64,000 bases of DNA from Nitzschia sp. DOCU1 (taxonomy: Eukaryota; Bacillariophyta; Bacillariophyceae; Bacillariales; Bacillariaceae). A program made the translations under genes and the position numbers. The stretch's first letter is position 1, and each line of letters opens with the position of its first letter. The stretch is from the NCBI GenBank assembly GCA_951394045.1, contig OX595985.1:4898001-4962000 (forward strand), read 5' to 3'. The notes beneath the pieces were generated by a model. It saw only the letters and a list, made by a program, of their open reading frames with translations, had not been told where the DNA came from and made no database searches. Positions 7,340-64,000 of the stretch are shown here, piece by piece.

Positions 7340-10300
7340 GAAGAAGAGCTGCATCCTTGCACCGTATTGCATCATCGTCGTCTGGAGCTGTGGTTTCAGT
7401 GTGGAGATGTGAGCTCGATTCTCATGCGGATACTTGCGCTTTCTCTGAGAGCGGATGTTATGTGTTATATGTTTACCAATATGATATTGAAGTGAATGGG
7501 TTTCATGCTTCGATGGGCCCAATTTCAAAGGTTCGCGAGTGTATGGTCGCTGTTGCGTACGACTGCCCTCTCACCTATCAAACTTTTATTCTGTTGTTTG
7601 ACCATGTTTTGGTCGTTCCGGGTATGGGTTGCCATCTGCTATGCCCGGATCAATTGCGAGAAAACCAGCTGATTGTTAATGATATTCCGTTGTTAAGAAT
7701 TCCGTCGGCTCAGCGAAAGTCAACGGACCATTGTATCATTGAGGGGACTGCTGATCTGCGGATCCCTCTGCAGTATGACAAACCCTTTTCGTTCTTTCCA
7801 TGGAGAAAGCCCTCGAGAGAAGAGGCCACCGACCCGGTGAACAATATTCATGTTCGAATGACGAGTGAATTAGAGTGGAAACCGTCTGATCCTCATTGCA
7901 ACGACGCGGAGGAACATCTGCGACAAACGGTCGGCGGCAACAATTTTCACAATCTCGACTCTGTTGTGACGAAGCGCCTTGTGTCGGCTTTCAATGTTGC
8001 GTCAACGTTACAAAATCAGGCTCTTTCGGCGTTCCTAGGGAACAAAGTTTCAGCTACTCTATCGGGAGTGAAGACCGCCGCTAAAACTACCTTGGTTAAA
8101 GCAGATGCCCTGGCGCGTCGTTGGAGAATCTCGATTGAAGCCGCGCAACGAACGCTTAACAAAACAACTCAACGTGCCGTCAGAGACTGGAGCAAGGTCT
8201 CAGGGGACCGTTTATTTCGGCCCTCCCATTATCAGCTCCGGTATCCAAGGTTGAAATGTGCTATGTATACCGACACGAAATTTGGTCCCTGCACATCGCT
8301 TGAGGGGACTACTTGTCTCCAAGTTTATGCTACAATATTTCAATGGTGCCGAGCCTTCCCGTTGCGACAAGAAAAAGATGCTCATACATCACTGGATAAA
8401 TTATTTCGTGCGTTCGGATTTCCTGAAGCAATTATTCCTGACTCGGCTACTACTTTAACGCAAGGAGAATTCTTGAGGCGCTGTCAAAAGGCGCAGGTTC
8501 CTATTTATCCGGTGGAGCCTTACATGCATAACCAAGCAAGAGCGGAGGACACAATACGGGAAGTTACCCGATTGTATGAAAGAACGATGACCTCACGTAA
8601 CGTACCCGCTGTTTTGTGGGACAGATGCTTTATGACTTGTTGCGAACAACGATCTCACACTGTTTTAAACCACCCTGAGCAAGAAGGTGAATGCGCCACT
8701 ACAATTATTACAGGTAACACAGCAGATATTTCACATCTCGTGGACTTTGCATTCTACGATTGGTGTTGGTCTCGGTCGCCGGCAGAATCAGCCCAACCGA
8801 AAAAGCAACTCACCCGCTGGCTTGGCCCAAGTTTTGAAGTCGGAGACGAGCTCTGCTTCGCCGTGCTGACCTCGAAGGGGACAATTTTGCACCGTACTTC
8901 AGTCATTCCGCTGTTGCCCGAGGAGCATCGCTCCGAGGACATTAAGCAAACAAAAAAGGAGTTCACTGAAAAGTTAAAGGTGTCGCTTGGTAATCGAATA
9001 AAAGGGATTTCTGTCGAGCCGGAGGAAGATGATGATCGGTTTATCCGTATCGAGGCAACCGTTCCGGAATATGAGAGATACGACGACGATGAAGAAGAAA
9101 GGGAGCGGAAATTCCAGCAATGGGAACCGCCTCCAGTTGATGAGGAAGAGGACCAGCTCGCATTTGACAAATATGTGTCGTCAAAGGTTCGTATGGCCTC
9201 GGGTGACGGTAATTCGTTCTTCACAGGTATCGTGAAGGGCCAGAAGCGTCGCCCTGATGGGAAATTCATTGGTTTCTACCATGACAATCCTATTCTTGAC
9301 ACGAGCGTCTACGAAGTTGAGTTTGATGATGGTCATGTTGAAGCGTACAATGCTAACCAGATCGCGGAAGCGATTTATGCCACAGTTGATGATGAAGGCT
9401 ACACCGTCATGCATTTGAAAGAGTTCGTCGACCACAAGCGTGATGGGAGTGCCTTGTCCAAAGATGATGCTTGGATTGAGCGTCATGGCCAGAGAATACC
9501 CAAGAGAACAACGAAAGGATGGAAAGTTTGCGCCGAAATGGTCGATGGATCAACTGAATGGCTCTCGCTGAAGGATGCGAAAGAGGGCTATCCGGTGCAA
9601 CTGGCGGAGTATGCCGTCGCGAATAAACTTGTTGAAGAACCGGTGTTTGCTTGGTGGGTTCCCTATACTCTCCGAAAACGTGATCGGATTTTGAAGGCAG
9701 TCAAACGTCGCGCGATTCGTCGCAAAAATGAGAAATTTGGAATCGAAGTCCCAGGGCCCATGGACGTGGCCCGGGCACGAGCTATTGATGCTGAAACCGG
9801 TACCGACCTGTGGGAGAAGGCAATGGCTAAGGAAGTCAAAACTGTGCTGCCTGCCTTAAAAGTTCTCGAAGACACTGAACAACCGCCAGTCGGGTCGCAA
9901 CAGATCGACCTGATGATTATTTTTGACGTTAAAATGGATCTGACAAGGAAGGCCCGGATCTGCGCAAGAGGCGATCAGACCGAGGCGCCGTCATCAATTA
10001 CATATGCGTCGGTAGTGACGCGAGAAAGTATCCGAATTGCATTCCTCATTGCCGATTTGAATGGTCTTAACATTTTGTCTGCCGATATCGCAGGAGCTTA
10101 CTTGCATGCGCCCTGTGCAGAAAAGGTTCACACAATCCTAGGTCCGGAGTTCGGCTCTCTCCAGGGTCGGACAGCTGTGATCATCAAGGCACTCTATGGA
10201 TTGTCGTCTGCAGGATTTTCATGGAGGTCTCATTGTGCAAAGGTTTTGAGGGAAGAAATGCAATTTATTCCATGCCGCGCCGATATGGATGTCTGGCGTC

Positions 10301-11418
10301 GTGAGGCGTTGCACCCGAACGGGGAGAAATATTATGAGTATTTACTTGTGTATACTGACGACTTGCTGTGTGTCTCTCACGATCCAAAGTCAATCCTGAA
10401 CGCTCTTAATGATCGGTTCCTATTGAAACCAGAGTCAGTGGGAGAGCCAACATCCTATCTAGGAGCCACAATCTCCAAGTATTGGATTGACGGCGATGCT
10501 AATTTTAAATGGGCTATCGGTTCAGAGGAATACGTGAAAGAAGCAATCCGCGTGATCCAATTACGGATCGACGGGACCCTGAAGAATAAGGTCAGCTCTG
10601 CACTACCGAATGGCTACAGACCAGAGCTGGATTCATCGCCACTACTGAATGACGACGGTGTATCATTTTACATGCAATGTATTGGAATTTTGCGTTGGAT
10701 TGTTGAGTTGGGGAGAATTGACATCTGCGGAGAGGTCTCGATGCTGTCGGCGTATAATGCGTGCCCGAGGAAAGGGCATCTGGATGCGGTGCTACATGTG
10801 TTTGCATATTTGAAGTCCCACGATCGATCTAAACTTGTTATGGATGACGCCTACATGGAGTGGGAAGAGTTGCCCAAATGCGATTGGTCTGAATTCTATC
10901 CGTGGGCTAAAGATGAATGGCCGCCGGACGCGCCAAGGCCATTAGGAAAACCAGTGGTAATTACTATGTTCGTCGATGCTTCACATGCTGCTAACCTTGT
11001 TACTCGACAGTCGCGCACAGGTGTGTTGATTTTCTTGAACAGAGCGCCAATTGTTTGGTACTCAAAGAAACAGAACAGTGTTGAAACAAGTTCGTTCGGG
11101 TCCGAGTTCATGGCTTTAAAGACCGGAGTTGAGTTGTTGGAAGCGCTACGCTACAAGTTGAGAATGATGGGCATCCCTATCGAGGGCTACGCCAATGTTA
11201 GAGTTGACAACATGTCCGTGGTGAAGAATACAAGCGTTCCCGAATCGATGCTGAAGAAGAAATCGAATTCCATTGCGTATCACTACGTTCGTTCAAAGGC
11301 TGCGGCCGATATCATTCGCATTGGATATGAGTCTACACAATCGAACCTGGCTGATATGCTGACCAAGATTCAAACTGGACCAGAGAGAAAGAGATTATGT
11401 TCGAAGGTTATGTTTTAG
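7336..11418 (+). CDS. pol: Cop-A Pol polyprotein (expressed by readthrough of the gag UGA)
   Basis: Same frame as gag, open from the codon after TGA to the stop at 11418, 1360 codons; no ATG lies near the start, so it is probably made as Gag-Pol. Domains in order: aspartic protease with ELDSHADTC (catalytic Asp codon at 7417); integrase with D (MYTDTKFG, 8272), D (IIPDSATTL) and E (ARAEDTIREV); an acidic linker; Copia RT with SADIAGAYLHA and the catalytic box YTDDLL (10351); RNase H with FVDASHAAN, SSFGSEFMAL and VRVDNMSVV, ending near SNLADMLTK. These are the enzymes for cDNA synthesis and integration. All catalytic residues I can check are present. Order IN before RT is diagnostic of Copia. 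Confidence 0.9.
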   Translation, partial: LGRRAASLHRIASSSSGAVVSVWRCELDSHADTCAFSESGCYVLYVYQYDIEVNGFHASMGPISKVRECMVAVAYDCPLTYQTFILLFDHVLVVPGMGCHLLCPDQLRENQLIVNDIPLLRIPSAQRKSTDHCIIEGTADLRIPLQYDKPFSFFPWRKPSREEATDPVNNIHVRMTSELEWKPSDPHCNDAEEHLRQTVGGNNFHNLDSVVTKRLVSAFNVASTLQNQALSAFLGNKVSATLSGVKTAAKTTLVKADALARRWRISIEAAQRTLNKTTQRAVRDWSKVSGDRLFRPSHYQLRYPRLKCAMYTDTKFGPCTSLEGTTCLQVYATIFQWCRAFPLRQEKDAHTSLDKLFRAFGFPEAIIPDSATTLTQGEFLRRCQKAQVPIYPVEPYMHNQARAEDTIREVTRLYERTMTSRNVPAVLWDRCFMTCCEQRSHTVLNHPEQEGECATTIITGNTADISHLVDFAFYDWCWSRSPAESAQPKKQLTRWLGPSFEVGDELCFAVLTSKGTILHRTSVIPLLPEEHRSEDIKQTKKEFTEKLKVSLGNRIKGISVEPEEDDDRFIRIEATVPEYERYDDDEEERERKFQQWEPPPVDEEEDQLAFDKYVSSKVRMASGDGNSFFTGIVKGQKRRPDGKFIGFYHDNPILDTSVYEVEFDDGHVEAYNANQIAEAIYATVDDEGYTVMHLKEFVDHKRDGSALSKDDAWIERHGQRIPKRTTKGWKVCAEMVDGSTEWLSLKDAKEGYPVQLAEYAVANKLVEEPVFAWWVPYTLRKRDRILKAVKRRAIRRKNEKFGIEVPGPMDVARARAIDAETGTDLWEKAMAKEVKTVLPALKVLEDTEQPPVGSQQIDLMIIFDVKMDLTRKARICARGDQTEAPSSITYASVVTRESIRIAFLIADLNGLNILSADIAGAYLHAPCAEKVHTILGPEFGSLQGRTAVIIKALYGLSSAGFSWRSHCAKVLREEMQFIPCRADMDVWRREALHPNGEKYYEYLLVYTDDLLCVSHDPKSILNALNDRFLLKPESVGEPTSYLGATISKYWIDGDANFKWAIGSEEYVKEAIRVIQLRIDGTLKNKVSSALPNGYRPELDSSPLLNDDGVSFYMQCIGILRWIVELGRIDICGEVSMLSAYNACPRKGHLDAVLHVFAYLKSHDRSKLVMDDAYMEWEELPKCDWSEFYPWAKDEWPPDAPRPLGKPVVITMFVDASHAANLVTRQSRTGVLIFLNRAPIVWYSKKQNSVETSSFGSEFMALKTGVELLEALRYKLRMMGIPIEGYANVRVDNMSVVKNTSVPESMLKKKSNSIAYHYVRSKAAADIIRIGYESTQSNLADMLTKIQTGPERKRLCSKVMF

Positions 11419-37832: not shown

Positions 37833-40800
37833 GAAGAAGGGCTGCATCCTTGCACCGTATTGCATCGTCGTCTGGAGCTGTGGTTTCAGTGTGGAGATGT
37901 GAGCTCGATTCTCATGCGGATACTTGCGCTTTCTCTGAGAGCGGATGTTATGTGTTATATGTTTACCAATATGATATTGAAGTGAATGGGTTTCATGCTT
38001 CGATGGGCCCAATTTCAAAAGTTCACGAGTGTTTGGTCGCCGTTGCGTACGACTGCCCTCTCACCTATCAAACTTTTATTTTGTTGTTTGACCATGTTTT
38101 GGTCGTTCCGGGTATGGGTTGCCATCTGCTATGCCCGGATCAATTGCGAGAAAACCAGCTGATTGTTAATGATGTTCCGTTGTTAAGAATTCCGTCGGCT
38201 CAGCGAAAGTCAACGGACCATTGTATCATTGAGGGGACTGCTGATCTGCGGATCCCTCTGCAGTATGACAAACCCTTTTCGTTCTTTCCATGCAGAAAGC
38301 CCTCGAGAGAAGAGGCCACCGATCCGGTGAACAATATTCACGTTCGAATGACGAGTGAATTGGAGTGGAAACCGTCTGATCCTCATTGCAATGACGCGGA
38401 GGAACATCTGCGACAAACGGTCGGCGGCAACAATTTTCACAATCTCGACTCTGTTGTGACGAAGCGCCTTGTGTCGGCTTTCAATGTTCCGTCAACGTTA
38501 CAAAATCAGGCTCTTTCGGCGTTCCTAGGGAACAAAGTTTCAGCTACTTTATCGGGAGTGAAGACCGCTGCTAAAACTACGTTGGTTAAGGCAGATGCCC
38601 TAGCGCGTCGTTGGAGAATCTCGATTGAAGCCGCGCAACGAACGCTTAACAAAACGACTCAACGTGCCGTCAGAGACTGGAGCAAGGTCTCAGGGGACCG
38701 TTTATTTCGGCCCTCCCATTATCAGCTCCGGTATCCAAGGTTGAAATGTGCTATGTATACCGACACGAAATTTGGTCCCTGCACATCGCTTGAGGGGACT
38801 ACTTGCCTCCAAGTTTATGCTACGATATTTCAATGGAGCCGAGCATTCCCGTTGCGACAAGAAAAAGATGCTCATACATCGCTGGATAAATTATTTCGTG
38901 CATTCGGATTTCCTGAGGCAATCATTCCGGATTCGGCTACTACGTTAACACAAGGAGAATTCTTGAGGCGCTGTCAAAAAGCGCAGGTTCCTATTTATCG
39001 GGTGGAGCCTTACATGCATAACCAAGCAAGAGCAGAGGACACAATACGGGAAGTTACCCGATTGTATGAAAGGACGATGACCTCACGTAACGTACCAGCT
39101 GTTTTGTGGGACAGATGCTTTATGACTTGTTGCGAACAACGATCTCACACTGTTTTAAATCACCCCGAGCAAGAAGGTGAATGCGCCACTATGATTATTA
39201 CAGGTAATACAGCGGATATTTCACATCTCGTGGACTTTGCGTTCTACGATTGGTGTTGGTCTCGGTCGCCGGCAGAATCAGCCCAACCAAAAAAGCAGCT
39301 CACTCGGTGGCTTGGCCCAAGTTTTGACGTTGGAGACGAGCTCTGCTTCGCCGTGCTGACCTCGAAGGGGACAATTTTGCACCGTACTTCAGTCATTCCG
39401 CTGTTGCCCGAGGAGCATCACTCCGAGGACATTAAGCAAACGAAAAAGGAGTTCACTGAAAAGTTAAAGGTGTCGCTTGGTAATCGAATAAAAGGGATTT
39501 CTGTCGAGCCGGAGGAAGATGATGATCGGTTTATCCGTGTCGAGGCAACCGTTCCGGAATATGAGAGATACGACGACGATGAAGAAGAAAGGGAGCGGAA
39601 ATTCCAGCAATGGGAACCGCCTCCAGTTGATGAGGAAGAGGACCAGCTCGCATTTGACAAATATGTGTCGTCAAAGGTTCGTATGGCCTCGGGTGACGGT
39701 AATTCGTTCTTCACAGGTATCGTGAAGGGCCGGAAGCGTGGCCCTGATGGGAAATTCATTGGTTTCTACCATGACAATCCTATTCTGGACACGAGCGTCT
39801 ACGAAGTTGAGTTTGATGATGGTCATGTTGAAGCGTACAATGCTAACCAGATCGCGGAAGCGATTTATGCCACAGTTGATGATGAAGGCTACACCATCAT
39901 GCATTTGAAAGAGTTTGTCGACCACAAGCGTGATGGGAGTGCCTTGTCGAAAGATGATGCCTGGATTGAGCGTCATGGCCAGAGAATACCCAAGAGAACA
40001 ACGAGCGTCATGGCCAGAGAATACCCAAGAGAACAACGAAAGGATGGAAAGTCTGTGCCGAAATGGTTGATGGATCAACTGAATGGCTCTCGCTGAAGGA
40101 TGCGAAAGAGGGCTATCCGGTGCAACTGGCGGAGTATGCCGTCGCGAATAAACTTGTTGAAGAACCGGTGTTTGCTTGGTGGGTTCCCTATACTCTCCGA
40201 AAACGTGATCGGATTTTGAAAGCAGTCAAACGTCGCGCGATTCGTCGCAAAAATGAGAAATTTGGAATCGAAGTCCCAGGGCCCATGGACGTGGCCCGGG
40301 CAAGAGCTATTGATGCTGAAACCGGTACCGACCTGTGGGAGAAGGCAATGGCTAAGGAAGTTAAAACTGTGCTGCCTGCCTTAAAAGTTCTCGAAGACAG
40401 TGAACAACCGCCAGTCGGGTCGCAGCAGATCGACCTGATGATTATTTTTGATGTTAAAATGGATCTGACAAGAAAGGCCCGGATCTGCGCAAGAGGCGAT
40501 CAGACCGAGGCGCCGTCATCAATTACATATGCGTCGGTAGTGACGCGAGAAAGTATCCGAATTGCATTCCTCATTGCCGATTTGAATGGTCTTAACATTT
40601 TGTCTGCCGATATCGCAGGAGCTTACTTGCATGCGCCCTGTGCAGAAAAGGTTCACACAATCCTAGGTCCGGAGTTCGGCTCTCTCCAGGGTCGGACAGC
40701 TGTGATCATCAAGGCACTCTATGGATTGTCGTCTGCAGGATTTTCATGGAGGTCTCATTGTGCAAAGGTTTTGAGGGAAGAAATGCAATTTATTCCATGC

Positions 40801-41943
40801 CGCGCCGATATGGATGTCTGGCGTCGTGAGGCGTTGCACCCGAACGGGGAGAAATATTATGAGTATTTACTTGTGTATACTGACGACTTGCTGTGTGTCT
40901 CTCACGATCCAAAGTCAATCCTGAACGCTCTTAATGATCGGTTCCTATTGAAACCAGAGTCAGTGGGAGAGCCAACATCCTATCTAGGAGCCACAATCTC
41001 CAAGTATTGGATTGACGGCGATGCTAATTTTAAATGGGCTATCGGTTCAGAGGAATACGTGAAAGAAGCAATCCGCGTGATCCAATTACGGATCGACGGG
41101 ACCCTGAAGAATAAGGTCAGCTCTGTACTACCGAATGGCTACAGACCAGAGCTGGATTCATCGCCACTACTGAATGACGACGGTGTATCATTTTACATGC
41201 AATGTATTGGAATTTTGCGTTGGATTGTTGAGTTGGGGAGAATTGACATCTGCGGAGAGGTCTCGATGCTGTCGGCGTATAATGCGTGCCCGAGGAAAGG
41301 GCATCTGGATGCGGTGCTACATGTGTTCGCATATTTGAAGTCCCACGATCGATCTAAACTTGTCATGGATGACGCCTACATGGAGTGGGAAGAGTTGCCC
41401 AAATGCGATTGGTCTGAATTCTATCCGTGGGCTAAAGATGAATGGCCGCCGGACGCGCCAAAGCCATTAGGAAAACCAGTGGTAATTACTATGTTCGTCG
41501 ATGCTTCACATGCTGCTAACCTTGTTACTCGACAGTCGCGCACAGGTGTGTTGATTTTCTTGAACAGAGCGCCAATTGTTTGGTACTCAAAGAAACAGAA
41601 CAGTGTTGAAACAAGTTTGTTCGGCTCCGAGTTCATGGCTTTAAAGACCGGAGTTGAGTTGTTGGAAGCGCTACACTACAAGCTGAGAATGATGGGCATC
41701 CCTATCGAGGGCTACGCCAATGTTAGAGTTGACAACATGTCCGTCGTGAAGAATACAAGCGTTCCCGAATCGATGCTGAAGAAGAAGTCGAATTCCATCG
41801 CGTATCACTACGTTCGTTCAAAGGCTGCGGCCGATATCATTCGTATTGGATATGAGTCTACACAATCGAACCTGGCTGATATGCTGACCAAGATTCAAAC
41901 TGGACCGGAGAGAAAGAGATTATGTTCGAAGGTTATGTTTTAG
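37829..41943 (+). pseudogene. pol: Cop-B Pol, frameshifted by a 35-bp tandem duplication
   Basis: Reads as Cop-A Pol through protease (ELDSHADTC), integrase (MYTDTKFG, IIPDSATTL, ARAEDTIREV) and the acidic linker. At 39968-40002 and 40003-40037 a 35-bp unit beginning GAGCGTCATGG is repeated in tandem; 35 is not a multiple of three, so the frame is lost and terminates at 40096. The RT/RNase H part (YTDDLL, FVDASHAAN) stays open in another frame to 41943. The single lesion makes the copy unable to produce RT, yet it might be mobilised in trans by Cop-A proteins. Confidence 0.88.
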
Positions 41944-53122: not shown

Positions 53123-54198
53123 TGCACCGAATGTTTTTGGTTGCGTCCATTAAGTTTCACATAAAGTCGTCCGTTTGACCACCACGCTCCAGCACCAACC
53201 GGCTTATTGATATCTTGATATTCTCACAGAATAATATCAAATTGTTCCTCCTTGGGCAACAATACTTTCCAACAAGCTTGCAATTGAAGGAAACTGATGC
53301 GCCGAATGTTTTTGGACGCATCCATTAACTTTCACGCTCCAGCACCGACTGGCTTGTTGATATCTTCAAATTCTCACAGAATAATATCAAATTGTTACTC
53401 CTTGGGCGACAATGCTTTCCAACAAGCTTGCAATTGAAGTAGAGTGATGCACCGGATGTTTTTGGACGCATCCATTAACTTTCACGCTCTAGCACCAACT
53501 GGCTTGTTGATATCTTGATATTCTCACAGAATAATATCAAATTGTTACTCCTTGGGCGACAATGCTTTCCAACAAGCTTGCAATTGAAGGAAACTGTCGC
53601 ACCAAATGTTTTTGGACGTGTCCATTAACTTTCACGCTCCAGCACTGACCACCGGCTGGTTGTTATCTTGATATTCTCACAGAATAATATCAAATTATTA
53701 CTCCTTGGGCGACAATACTTTCCAACAAGCTTGCAATTGAAGGAAACTGTTGCACCGAATGTTTTTGGATGTATCCATTAACTTTCACGCTCCAGCACCA
53801 ACCGGCTTATTGATATCTTGATATTCTCACAGAATAATATCAAATTGTTACTCCTTGGGCGACAATGCTTTCCAACAAGCTTGCAATTGAAGTAGAGTGA
53901 TGCACCGAATGTTTTTGGATGTATCCATTAACTTTCACGCTCCAGCACCGACCGGCTTGTTGATATTTTGATATTCTCACAGAATAATATCAAATTGTTA
54001 CTCCTTGGGCGACAATGCTTTCCAACAAGCTTGCAATTGAAGTAGAGTGATGCACCGAATGTTTTTGGACGCATCCATTAACTTTCACGCTCCAGCACCG
54101 ACTGGCATGTTGATATCTTGATATTCTCACAGAATAATATCAAATTGTTGCTCCATGGGCGACAATACTTTCCAACAAGCTTGCAATTGAAGTAGAGT
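53123..54198. repeat. Satellite: about seven tandem 150-bp units
   Basis: The landmark TTGCAATTGA recurs at 53278, 53428, 53578, 53731, 53881, 54031 and 54181: period 150 bp with one 153. Each unit contains CGAATGTTTTTGG, TTTCACGCTCCAGCACC and the short inverted repeat TTGATATT...AATATCAA. Partial, more diverged units extend left to ~52970. No coding potential. Confidence 0.93.
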
Positions 54199-55497
54199 GA
54201 TGGCAAGTTTAGCCATGCATTGGACAGTGGCTCATTCTTGCAATGGTTCAAATTGAAAAAATTGTTGGCTAGAGGTATCAAACCCCCCTTGGCTCGGACT
54301 CGGAGCTTGGTCAATTAAGGGTTTATTGTCGCCGTTGTCTTCTCTCAGATCTGAAATGCACGTTTGTTCTTGATACTCAGAACAATTCCACCGCAAGATA
54401 CAGACGTCTTCGTCGACAATCTCGCTACTAACTGCACTTTCGATCATTCTTCTCCAATTGGAAATCCCCAAACAATAGCGAATTATTGCACGAAGTAACT
54501 GCAACAACATTCGACCGCCGGATGTGAATAATGGTCAGGCGGGTGAAGAAAACGGGGTTTTAGTTGGATTGTTCCATGTAATGGTCGTGTTTCTGACGGA
54601 ATACAACCACTCTCAAAGCATTACTCCGCTCCAACCAAAGCAATTTGACAATGCAATAATGCTGGTATTCATTAACACAAACGCCAGTATCGGTGCAAAA
54701 CGGCTAGACGACGCAAAATCTGCATGGGATCAAGTCACAGCAATTGACTGGTTCAATACTGAGTAGAACCCGACAGTAACACAAAGAATGACTGCATGTA
54801 CCAATTTATTGTTGTTAATGGAGAATGATCAAATCCCATCGTTTCAACGTTTTTATTGTTCCCTCCGTCCCCGCTGCCGCGGGCAGCCGGAACCCCTCGG
54901 TCCGCGCGAACGCACTCCGTTTAGTCGAACCAGTCAAATGAATTGTGAAGATGTCCTTGGAAACTCCACGTGGAATACGTACCTTGTTTTAATTCTTTTA
55001 ATAAACAAGACGTTAAAAAACCGTTTCTTGTTATGAAGAATTTAACGCTACTTATGATTTGGTAAAAGCAGTGGGCTGATAACGCTCCCCCTTCTGCGTC
55101 TGGCTGCCCCGTATTATCTTGGATTGCTTGATTGATACGACCAAGCGAGTGGGCACGTTCGGTCCAATGAGTCGAATCGAAGTAGTCGAATTGGAAGTCA
55201 CCATTAACTTTTGTCCGAATGGCAGAGCCACAACGTATGCACACACATATCAAAGGTATCTAGGTACGTCGTCTTTCAGCCAGGCTAAGCACCCACTGCG
55301 GCGTCGAGGGTGCCCAACCCCAATCATACCAACGGTACATCCCCGCCTACTCCCCCACCCAAAACGTCAGGCTCCCACGCGCATGTGTAACCACACCCAA
55401 TCAAGTTTGCGCCCCTTGTAGAGATAATGATAGTATAGTTTTTCATCCTGACGATTAACAGCGCTTTCGCTTTTTACCCTGTGTTTCCCCTGTAACG
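54199..55497. other. Noncoding DNA leading into Cop-D
   Basis: No gene supported; ORFs at 54232-54510 (minus) and 54524-54766 (plus) are featureless. The part next to 55498 should hold the Cop-D LTR and leader, but with its partner outside the window I could not set LTR ends. Confidence 0.4.
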
Positions 55498-57041
55498 ATG
55501 TCGACTCCCGAACGCTACATTGCTAACTCTGTCGTAACTCCTGCCGTACTCCGTACTAACACGGACAGTAGTGTTGTGGTTGACCGCCGTCTGGCCCCAT
55601 CCAGTTATGATGACGAGGCAAAGTTTGTTTTGCGTGAGTTGAAAATCATTGCTTCCATTGTGTTGGGATCTACATATGACCCCACCAAAAATGTTGTTGC
55701 GTTGGAAGAACTCGATAAATTCCTTGTTGAGATCTTGGGCGCTGCCTGTTTTGCTGATTTGTCCTCCATCACTGGTTCCGAGGCTGTGGCAAAACTTGGT
55801 GACGACTTTCCAACCCTACAACTCCCTACCAGGGCCAACAGGCTCCAGCATGTGGTGGATTTTTCCCGTGTAAACACTTCTATCTCGTTGGATACGGACT
55901 ATTTGAAACATGTCCTTCCGGCATTGGCCACAAAGGATGTTAGTCAACATAAAGTTGCCTTTCCTACCGAGACGAAGAAATTGGAAGTCCCAACATTGCT
56001 ACCATTCAAGAACGACTTGGGCGAGTGGTACAATTGGTACCCCGATGTCGAGAACAAGCTGGGTAAAGCTGATCTACGAGATGCTATTACCGATGCTACT
56101 TTTGCTTCTCGCTACCCTACTGTTGCGAAACGAGTCTTCTTTGCAATGCGTGAAGCCTTGGCAGACGGTAATGCCAAGCACTTGGGTGAGGACTTGTTTG
56201 CCCAGGATGACTTGGACCCGTACAAATTGTGGAGGAGCCTCCACACTGCCTGTGATACGGACTCTAACAAGGCCAATATTACTTTGTTCCTAATTCGCAA
56301 GCTCATGGAAATCAGGTTGGATTTATCGATTATCCTACGACCTTTATCTCTGACTTCAAGAGTACGTTGATAAAGCTCCAAAGAAATGGGGCGTCCTTAG
56401 CACAGGACCATCAGACCCTTCGGTGTCTGTTACTCCAAGCAATCCAATTGGATGAATATGAGGCAATCCGTGAGAAAATAATTGCGGACCCTACCCGTTC
56501 CGTCGACCAACTTTTGAGTGACATCCGAGTCCGTACGGACACCTTGAATATCCAACACGGAGAACATGTGGATGGTAGCACACCGGTGACTACGTCCCGT
56601 CGCACTCCAGTTCGTGGAAAATTCCAAGGCACCAAACCGTATAAAGACCAGAAGGCTGGAGGCGGCTTGTCCCTTTGGAATATTCCAGACCTTCCACCCG
56701 GATGGGACCAGGCTTTTTCTAAAGGTCTTTACTCTCTTTTGATGAAGTGGCGTAACCGTTGTAATGAGGATCGTCGTCTTCCCCAGTCAAAAATAAATGA
56801 TGAGTTCGAGGTTGAACGACACACCTATCGCCCAAATAATAGCCGACCGAATGCCAACAAGTCCCGTCAGTCTCGCCAAACCAAACGTCAACGCACCGGG
56901 TCAGAAGACGATGGCGAGCAAACCACCGAAACTATTAACAGTAAGCAGACCCGCACTACTCCAAGTACAGTCACGGAATTTCGGATTAAAAGTGGCCCCA
57001 TGGCCAACCGATGCGTCACTTCCAAGAAGTCCTCCAACTGA
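55498..57041 (+). pseudogene. gag: Cop-D gag, frameshifted
   Basis: ATG 55498 (MSTPERYIANSVVTPAV). Frame 1 runs to about 56320, with the capsid-like region LKIIASIVLGSTYDP and LGEWYNWYPDVENKL; then the homologous reading moves to another frame, where TTFISDFKSTLIKLQRNGAS and LAQDHQTLRCLLLQAIQLDE continue the same protein to 57041. A single-base indel near 56320 explains this. C-terminal part is basic (QTKRQRTGSEDDGEQ) and lacks a clear zinc knuckle. A TGA at 57039 separates it from the protease in the same frame. A decayed Copia Gag. Confidence 0.75.
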
Positions 57042-57286
57042 AAAGTTGGGGATGGAGCTACGTTGGTGGGCATAACACCCATAAGATCAAGACGCATATC
57101 CCCACCATCGAGCCCATCCGAGTCCATATTAATCTCGGACAGTGCAAATGACCAGTTTTTGGTTAATTCTACCTGGACAATAATGCGTTATACGGGACGT
57201 TGTGTCTCCCTCTTGGGTGCCCTAGCAGGCCGCCATGCGGGGCAAACATTCCCGGTAGTATCAGCTGCCGCAAAGCTAACTACTGA
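57042..57286 (+). pseudogene. Cop-D protease, first part
   Basis: In the frame of the Gag C-terminus after its TGA. LISDSANDQFLV is at the place of a Copia-type DSGAD catalytic motif, so Gly-Ala are replaced by Ala-Asn and activity is doubtful. YTGRCVSLLGALAGRHAGQ and FPVVSAAAKLTT follow. The frame is interrupted exactly at 57286 by the LTR of Cop-C and resumes at 63833. Confidence 0.7.
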
Positions 57287-57472
57287 TGTGTAAAGTTTCC
57301 TGTGACTTACTCGTATCCTAATGATGATAAGCAGACGTAAAGCTAAAGACAACCGTATCCGAGATAAACCAAGATTAGATTGTGCCATTGTCGATGGCTT
57401 ACGTATTTCCTCCTTTCCATGACCGATGACCGTGCGCGTGATGCGCGCATATGCCACATCCACATTCGAACA
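57287..57472 (-). repeat. Cop-C 3' LTR
   Basis: On the minus strand TGTTCGAATGTGG...CTTTACACA. Preceded on that strand by a short purine tract (AAAGGGACTG). Confidence 0.88.
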
Positions 57473-57588: not shown

Positions 57589-60500
57589 CTACGCCGTCCC
57601 ATCTCCCTTTGTATCTTCCAATGTCCTAGGCTTCCCGAAATACAATATCTCCTGAAGTAACCTTTTCCTGTCATCCGTTGGAATCGTGGTCTTGGTAAAC
57701 AGATCTGCTAGATTGCACTTCCCATCGATCTTCGCAACCCTGATTGCTTCTCTTGCCGCCTCCTCACGAACAAAGTGATATGAAATCGAATGATGCTTCT
57801 TTTGTAACGTTGAATGAGGTAATGACGTATTCTTGACGACACTTTCATTGTCGCAGAAGATGTTGCTGGGCCCATCAATTGGAACTCCAAACATTCGCAG
57901 TTTGTACCTCAACGATTTGTTCATCTCGACCGCAACTCGCATTGCGTTGAACTCACTTCCGAATGTAGCGGCTTCCACCGTGTTCTGCTTCTTGGATAGC
58001 CACATGATTGGGGCATTATTCACAAATATCAAGATTCCAGATTGCGACCGACGATTCACAACGTTGCCAGCGTGATTGGCATCCACATAAATGACGATGC
58101 GAACGGAATTTCCTTTCGGCACCGGCATATTCGGTGGTAGTTCCTCTCCATCTACATCATAAAAATCTTTCCAATCAACGGGAACAAACAAGCTCTCGTC
58201 GAAATCAATCAACAGATCATCGAACACCATTGTCGACCATTCATGTTTCTGCAAGTAAGCAAATATTTTGTAAACGGTCTCGAGATGTCCAACGCGTGGG
58301 GCACAAAGGTGAGTCGCCAACGACGCTACCTCCGCAAGCATATCAATTCTTCCAAGCTCACACGCCCACCGCAGTACTCCTATCAAATGCATAAAACGAG
58401 TCGCCATGTCGTCGTCCAGTAATGGACTCGTGTCCAACTCCGGCCGATAACTCTTTGGAAATGGCCGATCAGAATCCTTCATTGGCAGATCACGGCCTTC
58501 TGACTTCAAGGTCTCACGCAAATTCTTAACCGCGCTCTTCACATAATCGTTGGCCGAGATTGCCCAAACCCAACGACCATCAGGTAGTTGATACTTGCCT
58601 ATGTTTGCCCCGAGATACCTCTCGGGCGGTGCCACTTCATCGTTCTTCAACTGGTACATCCCTGCGATAGCCTTCATTGTTTCCTGCGGTTTGTGCAACA
58701 TGCACATGATATCATCAACATAAACGAGTAGATATTCATAATATTCGCTCCCGTCCGGCTTGATTTGCGGCCTGATGTAAACGTCAGGGTCTGCTTTCGA
58801 GTCTCGCCATCCCAAATCAATTAGACTCGTCCTCAGCATATTCCTCCACGCTGCCCCGGACGACCTTATTAATAAATTCATAAATGGTTAGTGTACAAAG
58901 CAAATTTTGTGTTTCCTTTTCCTCTCTCACCGTAGACCATACAGTGCCTTGACGATCAACATAACTGCCCCCTCGTCGCTGCCGAATTCCGGGCCTGCCA
59001 CTGTCCAAATCTTCTCCCGGCAGTCTGCATTTAAATATGCGTTGCCTACATCGGCCGCGAGTATGTCTAGATTGTTCAATGCTGCCATCAAAAGGGCAAT
59101 TCGCACGCTGTCCCTGGAAACCACCAACGCATAAGTTATCGATGCCGGGGTCTCGGTTGTATGCCCTCCGGCAACAAGCCTGGCTTTTCTTGTGAAGTTA
59201 CCGTCCATTTTAATATCAAATACCATATGGCATTTGATTTCTTGATATCCCACCAATGTTTTGCCTGACCTTGCCTCCTCAACAGTAACGCCATCTTTTC
59301 TTTGAAAAGCTGGGCGCACATTCTTCATTTCCTTCATGATGGCATCGTACCAAAGGGTCGTGCCAGTTTCCTCATCGATCTTGAGTGCTTCCTTAACAGA
59401 ATGTGGTAGCCGAATGCCGAACTTGTGGGTAGTTCGCCAGTATCTGCTCTTGACCTTCTTGATAATAATGTTGCGCTTTCGCAGCACGTCCGAAACCCAC
59501 CACTTGAATGCGGGTTCTTCAGCGATCCCGTTTCCAACGGCATATTCTGCCACCTCTACTGGGTTGCTTTCTTTTAAGTCCTTCATCGCAACCCAAGTCG
59601 TTGCTCCATCCTTCCATTCTACTAAAAGGTCCCACCCGATGGTGGTGATCTTGGGAATTTGATTCCCATTCCTTGAAGTTACAAAACCATTGTCCTTCTT
59701 GATTGCTCGCCGATCCGACCTGTGATCCAAGATTTCCTTTAAATAAAAGAATTGGTGACCCTCGTCATCCACCTGCGAGAATAAGTTTTCTGCAATGACA
59801 TTCGCTGTGTACTCCGCCGTCGTCCCGTCTGGGAACACGACTTCGTATTCCCGAGTATTCATGATAGGGTTAGCATTATACTTTCCAATTGGGAGACCGT
59901 CTGGTCCCTTTGCCCTTTTCTTAACGGTCCCTCGCACATATTCATCCCCCTGAGGTAGTAAAACCTCTGCTCCAATGTAAGTGTCCAAGGAGTCAGCATC
60001 GTGGCCCTCCACATCCATTCCAGGCATATCTTCGCCTTCCACTGCTCCGACAATTTCGTGGTCTTCGTCTTCATCGGCGAATAAATCCTGTTGTCCAAAT
60101 TTACCTTCTTCGTCTCTGTCTATGTATTGCTCGTCATTGAGCGCCTCCTCGAGTTGTCGATCAAACCTCTCTATCCTTCGCCGAGTATCATCGTTCTTGT
60201 AGTCGTCTTCGACCACATGCTGAATCGTCGTGCGAGCCAATACTCTTCCTGATTCGTTCATGACGTAGTCACACAAAGCACCACCAATTCGGTGCACCAC
60301 TCCAACAAACCTACCGAGCTGTGGATTAATGTCGGCATTTGGGTTGTCCCAATACCAAACACGATCCCAGAAAGAAAAATCGAGCCACTCAGAAATATCC
60401 ACCGAGTCACCAGTGACCCGTTCAACGCCAGTCCTCCCGTCCCGTCCTGAAGCAGTGCGAGATAAAATCTCGGCTTCCCATACCATGCCGTAATCCCACA

Positions 60501-63288
60501 CTCTCCTTGGGACGCCCAGAGACGTTGCCCTGTTCTTCCATTTCCTCCTCAGCGTTCCAATGTCTCGTTCACAGCGATTCTGCCAGGGTGAGTAAGGCTC
60601 TGTCTGTCGCAAAAGCATCCGCACCTTGCGTGCAGTCTTAGCAAAGTCGCTGCCCGGAGCGACTTGCTCCAAAGCGCCATCTACTGTCATCATTTCCGGC
60701 ACGCCAACGTCGTCAAGAAACTCTTGCAGTGCTGCGCCGGCTTCACCTTTTGACTCCATTGGAAATACCTTAATCAAACCTTCGCCACTGAAGACCTGTG
60801 CATACTTATTACCTCGAATAGATTTCACCCCAGAGATCATCGTATCTGAGAAGAACTTAGCCCTCAATCGTCGCCTCGAATCCGACAGAATATCTGTGCG
60901 GTATCGCCGCCGAAGAGGATGGACGGCTGTGCGAATACCGACTTGAGTCGTCACCTGTAAGGTGCTCTTTGCTGTTTCCAAGCCGATTCTCCATTTCTGA
61001 GCCAACAACTCCGGTGTTATGACAGAGTGCCGAGTGGTAGCTACTGGAGCAACCGACATGGCTTGAGCAGTCCTCACAACCTGCACCTTTGAAATTAATT
61101 TAGATATCATCGTGGAACCTGTATAAACAGAAGAAATTTGTGAAAATGTAATGTTGCCGGGATCAAGACCCTTTGGCTGAACATTAACCCCGTAAGCCAG
61201 ACGATCCATTTCTGCCTCCTCCTTCGACAGCCCGAAAATGGCGGAAGAAGGATCCCAAAGATCGTCGTTCATCAAAATATGACGACACGTATTTAAGTCC
61301 TCGTCAGAAGGGCAAAAGGATTCGAAGGAACAAGTGGTCCCTTTCATCCGGAAGGGAATGAAATCACCATCCAAAGTAGATACACCAAGTGGGCGATTAG
61401 GATCAGTCGGGTCATCACAGACCGAATGGCCAAATGCACGCCATTGATATGGGTTGATCAACGAGTTTTCCATCGAGGTCCAAAATCCAAGGCCCTGTGG
61501 GAGAACAAGAATAACCGTTTCACCTGTGGAAGGAATCTGAAAAGCAGTTGCCGCCGTTACCATGGGTACTCCTCGGATTGGTTCGTAACCAGGATTAAAG
61601 GGTGAGACGTCAACAATTTCCCCAGTGTATTCCAAGGGTCGGAAATTCTTTCCGAAGCAGTGATTGTCAGATCGGCTGTCAATCTCGTTAGTGCGAAATT
61701 CACCAATAGGAAATACCGTAGTATCAACCTGAGCCTTGCCAGATGTCCTTTTCAATATCTTTACCATGCTCGAATTACGAGAGTTGCCGCCATAGGCGCC
61801 TTGCCCCATTCTTGGAGGCTGGGCATTTGTAGATGGTCGTGCGGTAGGCACGGATGTGGCGACTGAGGCGTTGTCCTGATTCGTAGCTGCCATGACTCCC
61901 CGAGTCACGGCCTGTTCGATTGCCTCAGTCATAGTGGAGACATCGCCTCCAGTAGTATTAGCTGCCGAAATGTTGCGTTGCTCAACAGCCCTAGCACGGT
62001 TTGGATCAGTTTGAATTGCATAGCGAATAGCGGGAGTCAAGCTCCACCACTCCGCCTCCGTCATATAACGGTGCGGGTCGGAAAGGTCCACGCCAGCATA
62101 AGACTGTGGGACCCCTGGGATACGGTTGGAGGACCTGCCTCCTCGACCGCCCCTTCCGTCTCGCCCTCCACCACGGCCACGGCCTCCCCGGTGACTAGAA
62201 CCATCATTGCTTGCCTGTGAAATGTGCCTGTTAGCGCGTTTGTATCCTCCGCCTCGTTCAAACATAGCAGGGTGAGCACGACGCAAAGTATCACTGAGCG
62301 TAGCGGCGCTTTTGTCAAAGTCAGCTCTCAAGTTCCTGTCAAGCATGATATACTCAACCGTAGCCTTAAATTCAGGCGCATTTGTATTGATACCACGAGT
62401 CAATTTCTCAACCTGTTCCTCGCCCGTAACAGGGCGTCCATACTTCCTCATAGTCTCGAATGCGGACTTGAGCTCCGAAACGTATGACTCAAAACTCTTA
62501 CTCTGTTCATTGCGCCAGTGCAAATGCTCGATTTGATAGCGAGCCTGTTCCAAACGACGCTGTTTCATATCTGGCCCATCGTAATGGGACCTGAGGTCTT
62601 GCATCGTCATCCTACCGTCCTTGTGCTTTTCGTTACCTTTCACCCAATGATAGGCGTCCGTACTAATCACGCACTGCATAATCTTGCGGAATACCACCTC
62701 CGCGTCTTTCTTGAATACTCTACCCTCGAGTGTAGCGCTCCAAAACGGCAAGGTATCATCCCTGTCTGGGTCGTTATCATCGCGGACAACGTACGACAAC
62801 GGAACGTTGCTGGCACCCTTCATGCTCTCCAAGTGGTTGATAAAATCTTTCTCCCAGTCAATCCATTTCTCGGGCTTGAGCTTTCCGGGCATTTTAATTT
62901 CATCCGCTTCGTTCCCTGCTTCCTTCTCCTGGATTCCTAAGTTGTATTGGTTCTTAGCATCGGAATACGCATCCAGATCAAAGTCATCCGGGAGCAAGGC
63001 TGCGCCACGCGAGTTCAAATCACGGACCCAAAATGCGAGGATTTGCAACTTCTTGATCCCAATCGCATTAAGCTTCGGCTTCATGTTTCCTCCCATGTCA
63101 CTCCACTCCTTGTCGGTAAAACCAATCATGTCCTCCAAGTCGTTGATGCCCTGCAAATGGACCTGAAAGGCTTGCAAGCGGCTCAAACCAAGCACATCAT
63201 GCAAAATGAATGGGACATCGTCCACGTTCGCCCCGCCGTTGGCGTTGAAGTAGGCGTTCGCCTGAGCAACTGTCGCATCGTTAACCAT
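57589..63288 (-). CDS. Cop-C Gag-Pol polyprotein, two exons
   Basis: Coding complement(join(57589..58864, 58931..63288)), 1877 residues, ATG at 63288 (MVNDATVAQANAYF). Gag: helical region to ~360, then RG-rich (HRGGRGRGGGRDGRGG). Protease candidate EIDSRSDNHCFG. Integrase: D (FFSDTMISG), D (MTVDGALEQ), E (NRCERDIGTL). Acidic linker, then RT: AADVGNAYLNADC, VKALYGLR | SSGAAWR across the intron, YVDDIMCM catalytic box. RNase H: YVDANHAGN, AATFGSEFNAM, FCDNESVV, ending NLADLFTK. Without splicing, the frame meets TGA right after YGLR (58929-58927) and lacks the catalytic YVDD and RNase H. Related Cop-A/B have no intron here (ALYGLSSAGFSWR). Gag and pol are fused in one frame, unlike Cop-A. Confidence 0.9.
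58865..58930 (-). other. 66-bp spliceosomal-type intron inside the RT domain
   Basis: Minus strand: donor CTACG|GTGAGAG, acceptor TTAATAAG|GTCGTCC, branch-like CACTAACC with the A 23 nt from the acceptor (about 58888). Phase 2. Removal restores GLRSSGAAWR, the conserved Copia RT block. The intron holds an in-frame TGA as its first full codon. Length is a multiple of three. Confidence 0.85.
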
Positions 63289-63647: not shown

Positions 63648-63832
63648 TGTGTAAAGTTTCCTGTGACTTACTCGTATCCTAATGATGATAAGCAGACGTA
63701 AAGCTAAAGACAACCGTATCCGAGATAAACCAAGATTAGATTGTGCCATTGTCGATGGCTTACGTATTTCCTCCTTTCCATGACCGATGACCGTGCGCGT
63801 GATGTGCGCATATGCCACATCCACATTCGAAC
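63648..63832 (-). repeat. Cop-C 5' LTR
   Basis: Same as 57287-57472 with one substitution seen. Confidence 0.88.
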
Positions 63833-64000
63833 ACTGAAGATGGAAAACAATTTTGCGCTATTGTGCATGAGGCTCTCTATGATGATAATCCTGTGCAAAT
63901 GGAATCCCTGATAGCCAATGCCCAGGTGCGGGTTTGGTTTGACCTGGCGACCAAACGTCCATCGCGCACACATCAAAAGGTTCATCCATTTCCAATGCCT
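63833..64000 (+). pseudogene. Cop-D pol, continuation after Cop-C
   Basis: Continues the protease frame broken at 57286: reading from ACT at 63833 gives TEDGKQFCAIVHEALYDDNP then LIANAQVRVWFDLATKR, open to the window edge (56 codons). Joining the flanks restores a known Copia-type context, which confirms that Cop-C is an insertion. Integrase, RT and RNase H should lie to the right of the window. Confidence 0.75.

Follow-up and report, generated by a model that had tools for sequence, protein, structure and literature searches.

Cop-C, an LTR retrotransposon on the minus strand of the window (the whole stretch of 64,000 nucleotides analysed, part of contig 1 of a 52-Mb genome), has a reverse transcriptase (RT) reading frame that is interrupted by a spliceosomal-type intron, and most copies of the element elsewhere in the genome carry the same intron. 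We propose that Cop-C is a Ty1/copia element with a functional host-type intron that divides its RT, and that some of its transcripts undergo splicing; only the spliced transcripts would give an RT with both active-site halves and the RNase H region. Unspliced transcripts, if translated, would stop at the TGA that opens the intron and yield the proteins from Gag to integrase plus half of the RT. New copies would usually be templated by these unspliced transcripts, and in this way the intron would have survived; spliced RNA would be copied now and then to give an intronless element such as that at locus L024. In our judgement this model as a whole, drawn from genomic sequence, is probably correct.

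The element in the window is flanked by LTRs of 186 bp, which, as the preliminary description had reported, differ by one mismatch (185/186 identical in a self-comparison). The same description had located an intron of 66 nt, GTGAGAG...TAATAAG, at 58930-58865; these coordinates proved exact, and the element is here additionally placed on the minus strand (Table 1). The upstream frame (63294-58927, 1455 aa) is closed by a TGA that overlaps the GT of the intron, in agreement with the in-frame stop described earlier at the intron start, and the downstream frame (58887-57589) carries SSGAAWR...YVDD. The intron, which contains CACTAACC, is in phase 2 and falls within the Arg codon of ALYGLR/SSGAAWR (the slash marks the intron position); the preliminary description had the reading restored as GLR/SSGAAWR, and L024 lacks precisely these 66 nt. 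Within the RT, the intron lies between motif A in exon 1 and the YVDD and RNase H region in exon 2. We assigned the RT motif names from general RT anatomy, and the Gag, protease and integrase parts of exon 1 are likewise presumed from familiar motifs.

Residues 1352-1455 of exon 1 matched the Pfam family RVT_2 (PF07727) over profile positions 15-124 of 244 (1.4e-8; 35.1 bits against a cut-off of 31.6). Exon 2 alone had no Pfam match at E 0.001, and PF07727 was present in many of the protein relatives of exon 2 among the matches listed. Protease-like and integrase-like motifs were recognised by eye upstream of the RT, with no Pfam integrase match. The RVT_2-type RT, the TG...CA ends of the LTRs and the short target duplication place Cop-C in the Ty1/copia superfamily. 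Cop-C seems to have gone into, or close to, other coding sequence (55459-57041 on the plus strand, and 63834 onward), whose two open reading frames (55459-56370 and 56268-57041) appeared Gag-like by eye and had no Pfam match. A 52-nt direct repeat of 96% identity occupies 54001-54052 and 54151-54202, at a spacing of 150 nt.

Table 1. Features of the Cop-C element in the window; protein parts and motifs are named as we take them to be.
Feature	Position	Strand	Remarks
5' LTR	63648..63833	-	TGTTCG...TACACA in element orientation; self-comparison
3' LTR	57287..57472	-	self-comparison with 5' LTR
Target-site duplication adjoining 5' LTR	63834..63837		CTGA on plus strand, TCAG in element orientation
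Target-site duplication adjoining 3' LTR	57283..57286		CTGA on plus strand
Exon 1	58931..63288	-	Gag, protease-like and integrase-like parts, N-terminal RT half to ALYGL(R)
Motif A of RT	Asp at 59050-59052	-	AADVGNAYLNA; exon 1
Intron	58865..58930	-	spliceosomal-type, 66 nt, phase 2; 5' GTGAGA, 3' AAG
In-frame TGA opening the intron	58927..58929	-	would end translation of unspliced RNA
Branch-site-like CTAAC	58887..58891	-	first base 27 nt from intron end
Second in-frame stop, TAA	58888-58890	-	within CTAAC of the intron
Exon 2	57589..58864	-	C-terminal RT half with YVDD, and RNase H region; 424 codons past the split codon
YVDD of RT	58711-58722	-	exon 2

The Cop-C intron qualifies as a GT-AG intron by its ends, its branch-site-like motif and its exact loss in a retrocopy, and it resembles the introns of its host. 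That the host is a diatom was shown by the silicon transporter family PF03842, for which 18 of 18 matches scored above the cut-off; among 14 control genomes, one had a match and none had a match above the cut-off. Host introns inspected by eye in eight silicon transporter genes and four chaperonin-gene gaps were approximately 71-94 nt long, and the 66 nt of Cop-C are slightly shorter. CTAAC, CTCAC or CTGAC was seen by eye in all eight silicon transporter introns, and one of the four chaperonin-gene gaps (L039, where no intron was delimited) had no CTNAC candidate. In the host introns GT, mostly CTNAC, and AG are placed similarly to those of the Cop-C intron. Points against the proposed model are the slightly shorter length, the chaperonin-gene gap with no candidate and the lack of a pyrimidine tract at the 3' splice site of the Cop-C intron (TAATAAG); given the last, splicing could be weak, which would agree with partial splicing.

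A DNA search of the genome with Cop-C gave 25 matches at 24 loci, and all 24 (the one in the window and 23 fetched with their flanks) were aligned. They comprised 13 loci of Cop-C, eight of a sister family, termed B, and three of an intronless family. The full 66-nt intron was present in 11 of the 13 Cop-C loci; L015 is truncated within the intron, which is interrupted there by other DNA, and L024 is intronless. Genome-wide pattern searches, whose counts are lower bounds, gave at least 11 perfect matches to the Cop-C donor pattern and at least one to the spliced junction, namely L024. A further donor-pattern match with two mismatches (C2:1889217) was dismissed as noise, as a reversed control pattern gave eight matches within two mismatches. 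Both LTRs lay within the fetched stretch at 11 of the 13 loci (L010 and L015 being the exceptions), and all 11 had a 4-bp target duplication, no two alike. Ten of these 11 loci carry the intron, and in five of the 11 the two LTRs did not differ at all over 200-201 bp. The distinct duplications and identical LTR pairs argue that the insertions are independent and in part very young, and segmental duplication of a single intron-bearing copy is ruled out by the distinct duplications. The LTRs of L009 (C19:5888-13088) measure approximately 232 bp and are longer than those of the window copy (186 bp) and of the other two-LTR copies (approximately 200 bp). That the intron is not fortuitous is upheld by 11 loci that keep it with the first 10 nt invariant and by one exact loss. 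The preliminary description had asked whether the 66 bp accompany copies at different target sites, as they do in ten two-LTR carriers whose duplications all differ; that all other copies might lack the 66 bp, which would have told against it, did not occur.

In the alignment of the 24 loci, the gap at L024 ran precisely from the GT to the AG, and the locus had one uninterrupted open frame of 1902 aa. It is bounded by LTRs of its own, which differ by one gap and no mismatch, and by a separate target duplication. In a tree of exon 2, L024 grouped with the intron carriers L014 and L023 with a support of 1.0, and the intron of L014 was homologous to that of the window (z 8). Nested among carriers whose intron is shared with the window copy, L024 must have lost the intron rather than being primitively intronless, and the loss occurred either in L024 itself or in an earlier parent. 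Reverse transcription of a spliced RNA would be the simplest cause, from which we infer that Cop-C transcripts are very probably spliced and that such RNA has been copied on at least one occasion. The loss is thus an indirect sign that splicing takes place in living cells, and it indicates that spliced RNA can act as a template and that the choice of template would not be absolute.

The coding sequence behind the intron has been maintained. Twelve Cop-C loci span the junction, and in all of them but L010, where it stops at 250 codons, exon 2 was open over 424 codons; in L015, outside these 12, it ends at 276 codons. Exon 1 was open over 1454-1478 codons in seven of the 12 (the window copy, L009, L011, L013, L020, L021 and L024) and broken in L010, L012, L014, L022 and L023. 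Between Cop-C subfamilies, dN/dS of exon 2 was 0.021-0.031 in the eight pairs computed, at synonymous distances of 0.22-0.63; it was 0.067-0.070 in three close pairs and 0.078-0.080 in two pairs within family B, and synonymous sites were saturated between Cop-C and family B. Exon 2 of Cop-C is under strong purifying selection, and the RT half behind the intron must therefore have been in use throughout the history of the intron-bearing lineages.

The first 10 bases of the intron were invariant in the 11 intron-bearing Cop-C loci, as were 39 of 66 columns overall, a count that depends on the alignment, in which a 1-nt shift of L014 and L023 was left ungapped. CTAAC was present in all 11, at 26-27 nt from the end, and each of the ten Cop-C introns translated had two in-frame stops. 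Away from the two splice sites and the branch site, divergence was 13-26%, compared with 13-45% at fourfold positions in the exons, the counts for L014 and L023 being approximate owing to the ungapped shift. Intron divergence was below the pooled fourfold rate in six of six non-independent pairs, with p 0.009 in one and 0.13-0.31 in the others. This pattern is that of an ordinary spliceosomal intron and not that of a translated insert. A conserved packaging element within the intron is not clearly supported, and the lower divergence is compatible with mild extra constraint outside the splice signals. The TAA of a (T/C)TAAC branch-site-like motif was in frame in eight of the ten Cop-C introns and all eight family B introns translated.

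Family B (L016-L019, L025-L027 and L031) shares 71-72% DNA identity and approximately 87% protein identity with Cop-C, and it also has an intron in the RT. This intron is 60 nt long, in phase 1, and interrupts the Gly codon of ALYG/LK, 7 nt upstream of the Cop-C site; it was present in all eight loci found, with one in-frame stop each. The lengths of both introns, 66 and 60 nt, are multiples of three, and both contain in-frame stops. Genome-wide, the family B donor pattern had at least eight matches (seven perfect and one with two mismatches), and the spliced-junction pattern had none. A 4-bp target duplication matched in two of the three family B loci scored, L027 being mismatched, and L025 matches by eye. 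Homology between the Cop-C and family B introns was not detected in four pairs (z 0.2 to 1.4 against dinucleotide shuffles), whereas introns of Cop-C subfamilies aligned to each other with z 8 and 12. Since synonymous divergence of the exons has reached saturation, this result is compatible with an ancient shared origin followed by sliding. Two random gains within 7 nt would have a chance of approximately 15/5,700 by our arithmetic for a coding length near 5,700 nt, which argues that one intron slid or that the place is favoured.

Other Copia elements were surveyed at 97 of 399 candidate loci, 77 of which belonged neither to Cop-C nor to family B. No intron at the junction was found in the 60 of these 77 that were inspected; 59 read through, and L060 was frameshifted just past the junction. 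The remaining 17 lay within open frames of 540-1569 aa (16 loci) or 381 aa (one locus). The window itself holds two copia elements without an RT intron, both on the plus strand, at 10204-11415 (frame of 1360 aa) and at 40729-41943 (frame of 657 aa, containing one stop). From two protein searches (best 120 of 2385 and best 120 of 1716 matches), 235 proteins were compared. By a loose motif, 164 had an ALYG-like match followed by at least 70 residues, 28 ended within 70 residues of the last match (in P0047 this match was far from the RT), and 43 had no match, some of them starting or stopping short of the motif. The best public match among those listed, P0001 (88-89% to Cop-C and 98.5-99.3% to family B), starts after the intron and therefore adds no independent evidence. 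The next relatives among the matches listed, P0002 (76-77%) and P0003 (72-73%), are both intronless. Together with the other Copia loci, they indicate that the presence of an intron is in all likelihood a derived character of the clade formed by Cop-C and family B. P0195 (659 aa) appeared the most intron-like of the 235 proteins by eye: its frame reaches VRALYG, continues for approximately 24 unrelated residues and ends, its departure from the RT consensus falls at the Gly codon that holds the intron in family B, and its codons could conceal a GTGAG donor. P0211 departs a few residues later. A scan of viral contigs with exon 2 gave no match, and one with P0195 gave ten pattern matches, none confirmed as a relative.

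The catalytic residues of RT fall on both sides of the Cop-C intron site. With the active site divided in this way, unspliced RNA should be unable to encode a working RT, and the production of spliced RNA, which would then be required, is strongly supported. The intron in 11 of the 12 junction-spanning loci implies either that unspliced RNA is the usual template or that intronless copies are at a disadvantage. We prefer a template bias since many insertions are young, although a single intronless locus among the 12 does not suffice to separate the two. A split into mRNA and template pools, as we infer it, would follow from partial or inefficient splicing, from nuclear retention of unspliced RNA or from selective packaging, and control of the Gag:RT ratio by splicing would be its natural consequence. 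The preliminary description had held that RT is made only from spliced RNA and that only unspliced RNA is copied; the division of the catalytic residues sustains the former, and in view of L024 the latter is too strong.

The intron might instead be a relic of an ancestral gain with no regulatory role, the genomic RNA pool being rarely spliced for unrelated reasons. Drift of the intron outside its signals, which was not clearly different from that of fourfold sites in five of six pairs, would fit such a history, but the constraint on exon 2 requires splicing in some RNA, and the introns of the two sister families, being separated by 7 nt, suggest that their location is of importance, unless one of them slid. 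We consider this explanation unlikely, though it deserves to be kept in mind. Somewhat less likely still is efficient splicing with frequent copying of the spliced RNA, in which case intronless copies would be unfit (through the protein ratio or silencing) or lost, and selection would keep the intron. L024 indicates that spliced RNA is copyable, and the spliced-junction search with its single match revealed no further intronless copy; yet for one of 12 loci to be intronless when five of 11 LTR pairs are identical leaves little time for selection.

It is very improbable that the intron carriers never undergo splicing and move as non-autonomous passengers, with the RT of intronless masters such as L024 acting on them in trans. 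An intronless copy with a single frame of 1902 aa does exist, but it is nested within the carriers, exon 2 of the carriers is under strong purifying selection and their 5' splice site is invariant, and the family B intron occurs in eight of eight loci found with no match to a spliced junction. Although 66 and 60 are both multiples of three, the notion that the 66 nt are a translated insert passed by stop-codon readthrough, and no intron, is scarcely credible in view of two in-frame stops in ten of ten Cop-C introns and one in eight of eight family B introns translated, the unrelated sequences of the two inserts, the invariant splice signals and the exact GT-AG loss in L024.

More speculatively, the intron that divides the RT active site in this copia clade might be a control kept by selection, with active RT obtainable from spliced RNA alone and a template that is chiefly unspliced. 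Such a device would have arisen twice, or been lost and regained, near the same spot, given sister introns that are unrelated in sequence, differ in phase and lie 7 nt apart, and given the departure of P0195 at the same Gly codon; we regard this reading as doubtful.

Penelope-like and DIRS1-like elements are retroelements said to retain introns, and they are not copia elements; foamy retroviruses are not known to have an intron through the RT frame. Foamy viruses, of a different family, resemble Cop-C in that, by the passages concerned, Pol is made from spliced RNA (PMC5014426). An overview of DIRS1 does not contain the term intron (PMC3266345). The working principle proposed for Cop-C is shared, as far as the relevant passages describe it, by Ogre (PMC12786077). 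Ogre, however, is a plant Ty3/gypsy element with the corresponding RT and an intron between protease and RT, whereas Cop-C, with its RVT_2 copia-type RT, is not a member of that family and carries in a diatom an intron of 66 nt within the RT, between motif A and YVDD. BARE1, EVD and Drosophila copia belong, like Cop-C, to the Ty1/copia superfamily, and their RNA forms a spliced and an unspliced pool, as is proposed for Cop-C. In the portions of the papers drawn on here, the authors argue for BARE that unspliced transcripts alone replicate (PMC3735527), and the unspliced RNA of EVD is largely nuclear and is the template (PMC8892269). The polarity is opposite, since splicing of BARE1 and EVD gives a Gag-only RNA (PMC3735527; PMC8892269) and splicing of Cop-C would complete the RT. 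DNA copies of spliced BARE RNA were not amplifiable according to the same portion (PMC3735527), in contrast to the one presumed copy of this kind in Cop-C, L024. In the plant Ty3/gypsy element CRR, splicing likewise involves the rt region, but as described there it removes rt and creates two ORFs (PMC3735527) instead of completing the RT. For Cer1 of C. elegans, the passages cited state that genomic RNA left unspliced despite its splice sites has to avoid being retained in the nucleus; splicing of Cer1, unlike that of Cop-C, yields an extra protein, CERV (PMC10309623). The CoDi elements are diatom Ty1/copia elements like Cop-C, as the part of their survey used here describes them, and its main text lacks the terms intron and splic (PMC2806351). 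A cryptic intron is mentioned for yeast Tf2 (PMC7175516), and the passages of this and three other papers (PMC13148404, PMC12477816 and PMC7017206) offer no close parallel to Cop-C. No report of an intron inside a Ty1/copia RT was noticed among the titles and abstract openings listed from a literature with few subscription papers, which provides weak evidence that the arrangement in Cop-C is new. Its differences from Ogre concern superfamily, intron position and host.

Elements that move through RNA are expected to lose introns, and Cop-C has kept its own in ten independent two-LTR insertions, with one natural loss. The intron-bearing and intronless copies are a natural experiment, and the retention of the intron together with its loss in L024 offers a direct way to learn which RNA pool serves as template. 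With the RT active site divided by the intron, the dependence on splicing should be absolute. If confirmed, the arrangement would extend splice-dependent Pol expression to Ty1/copia elements and to diatoms.
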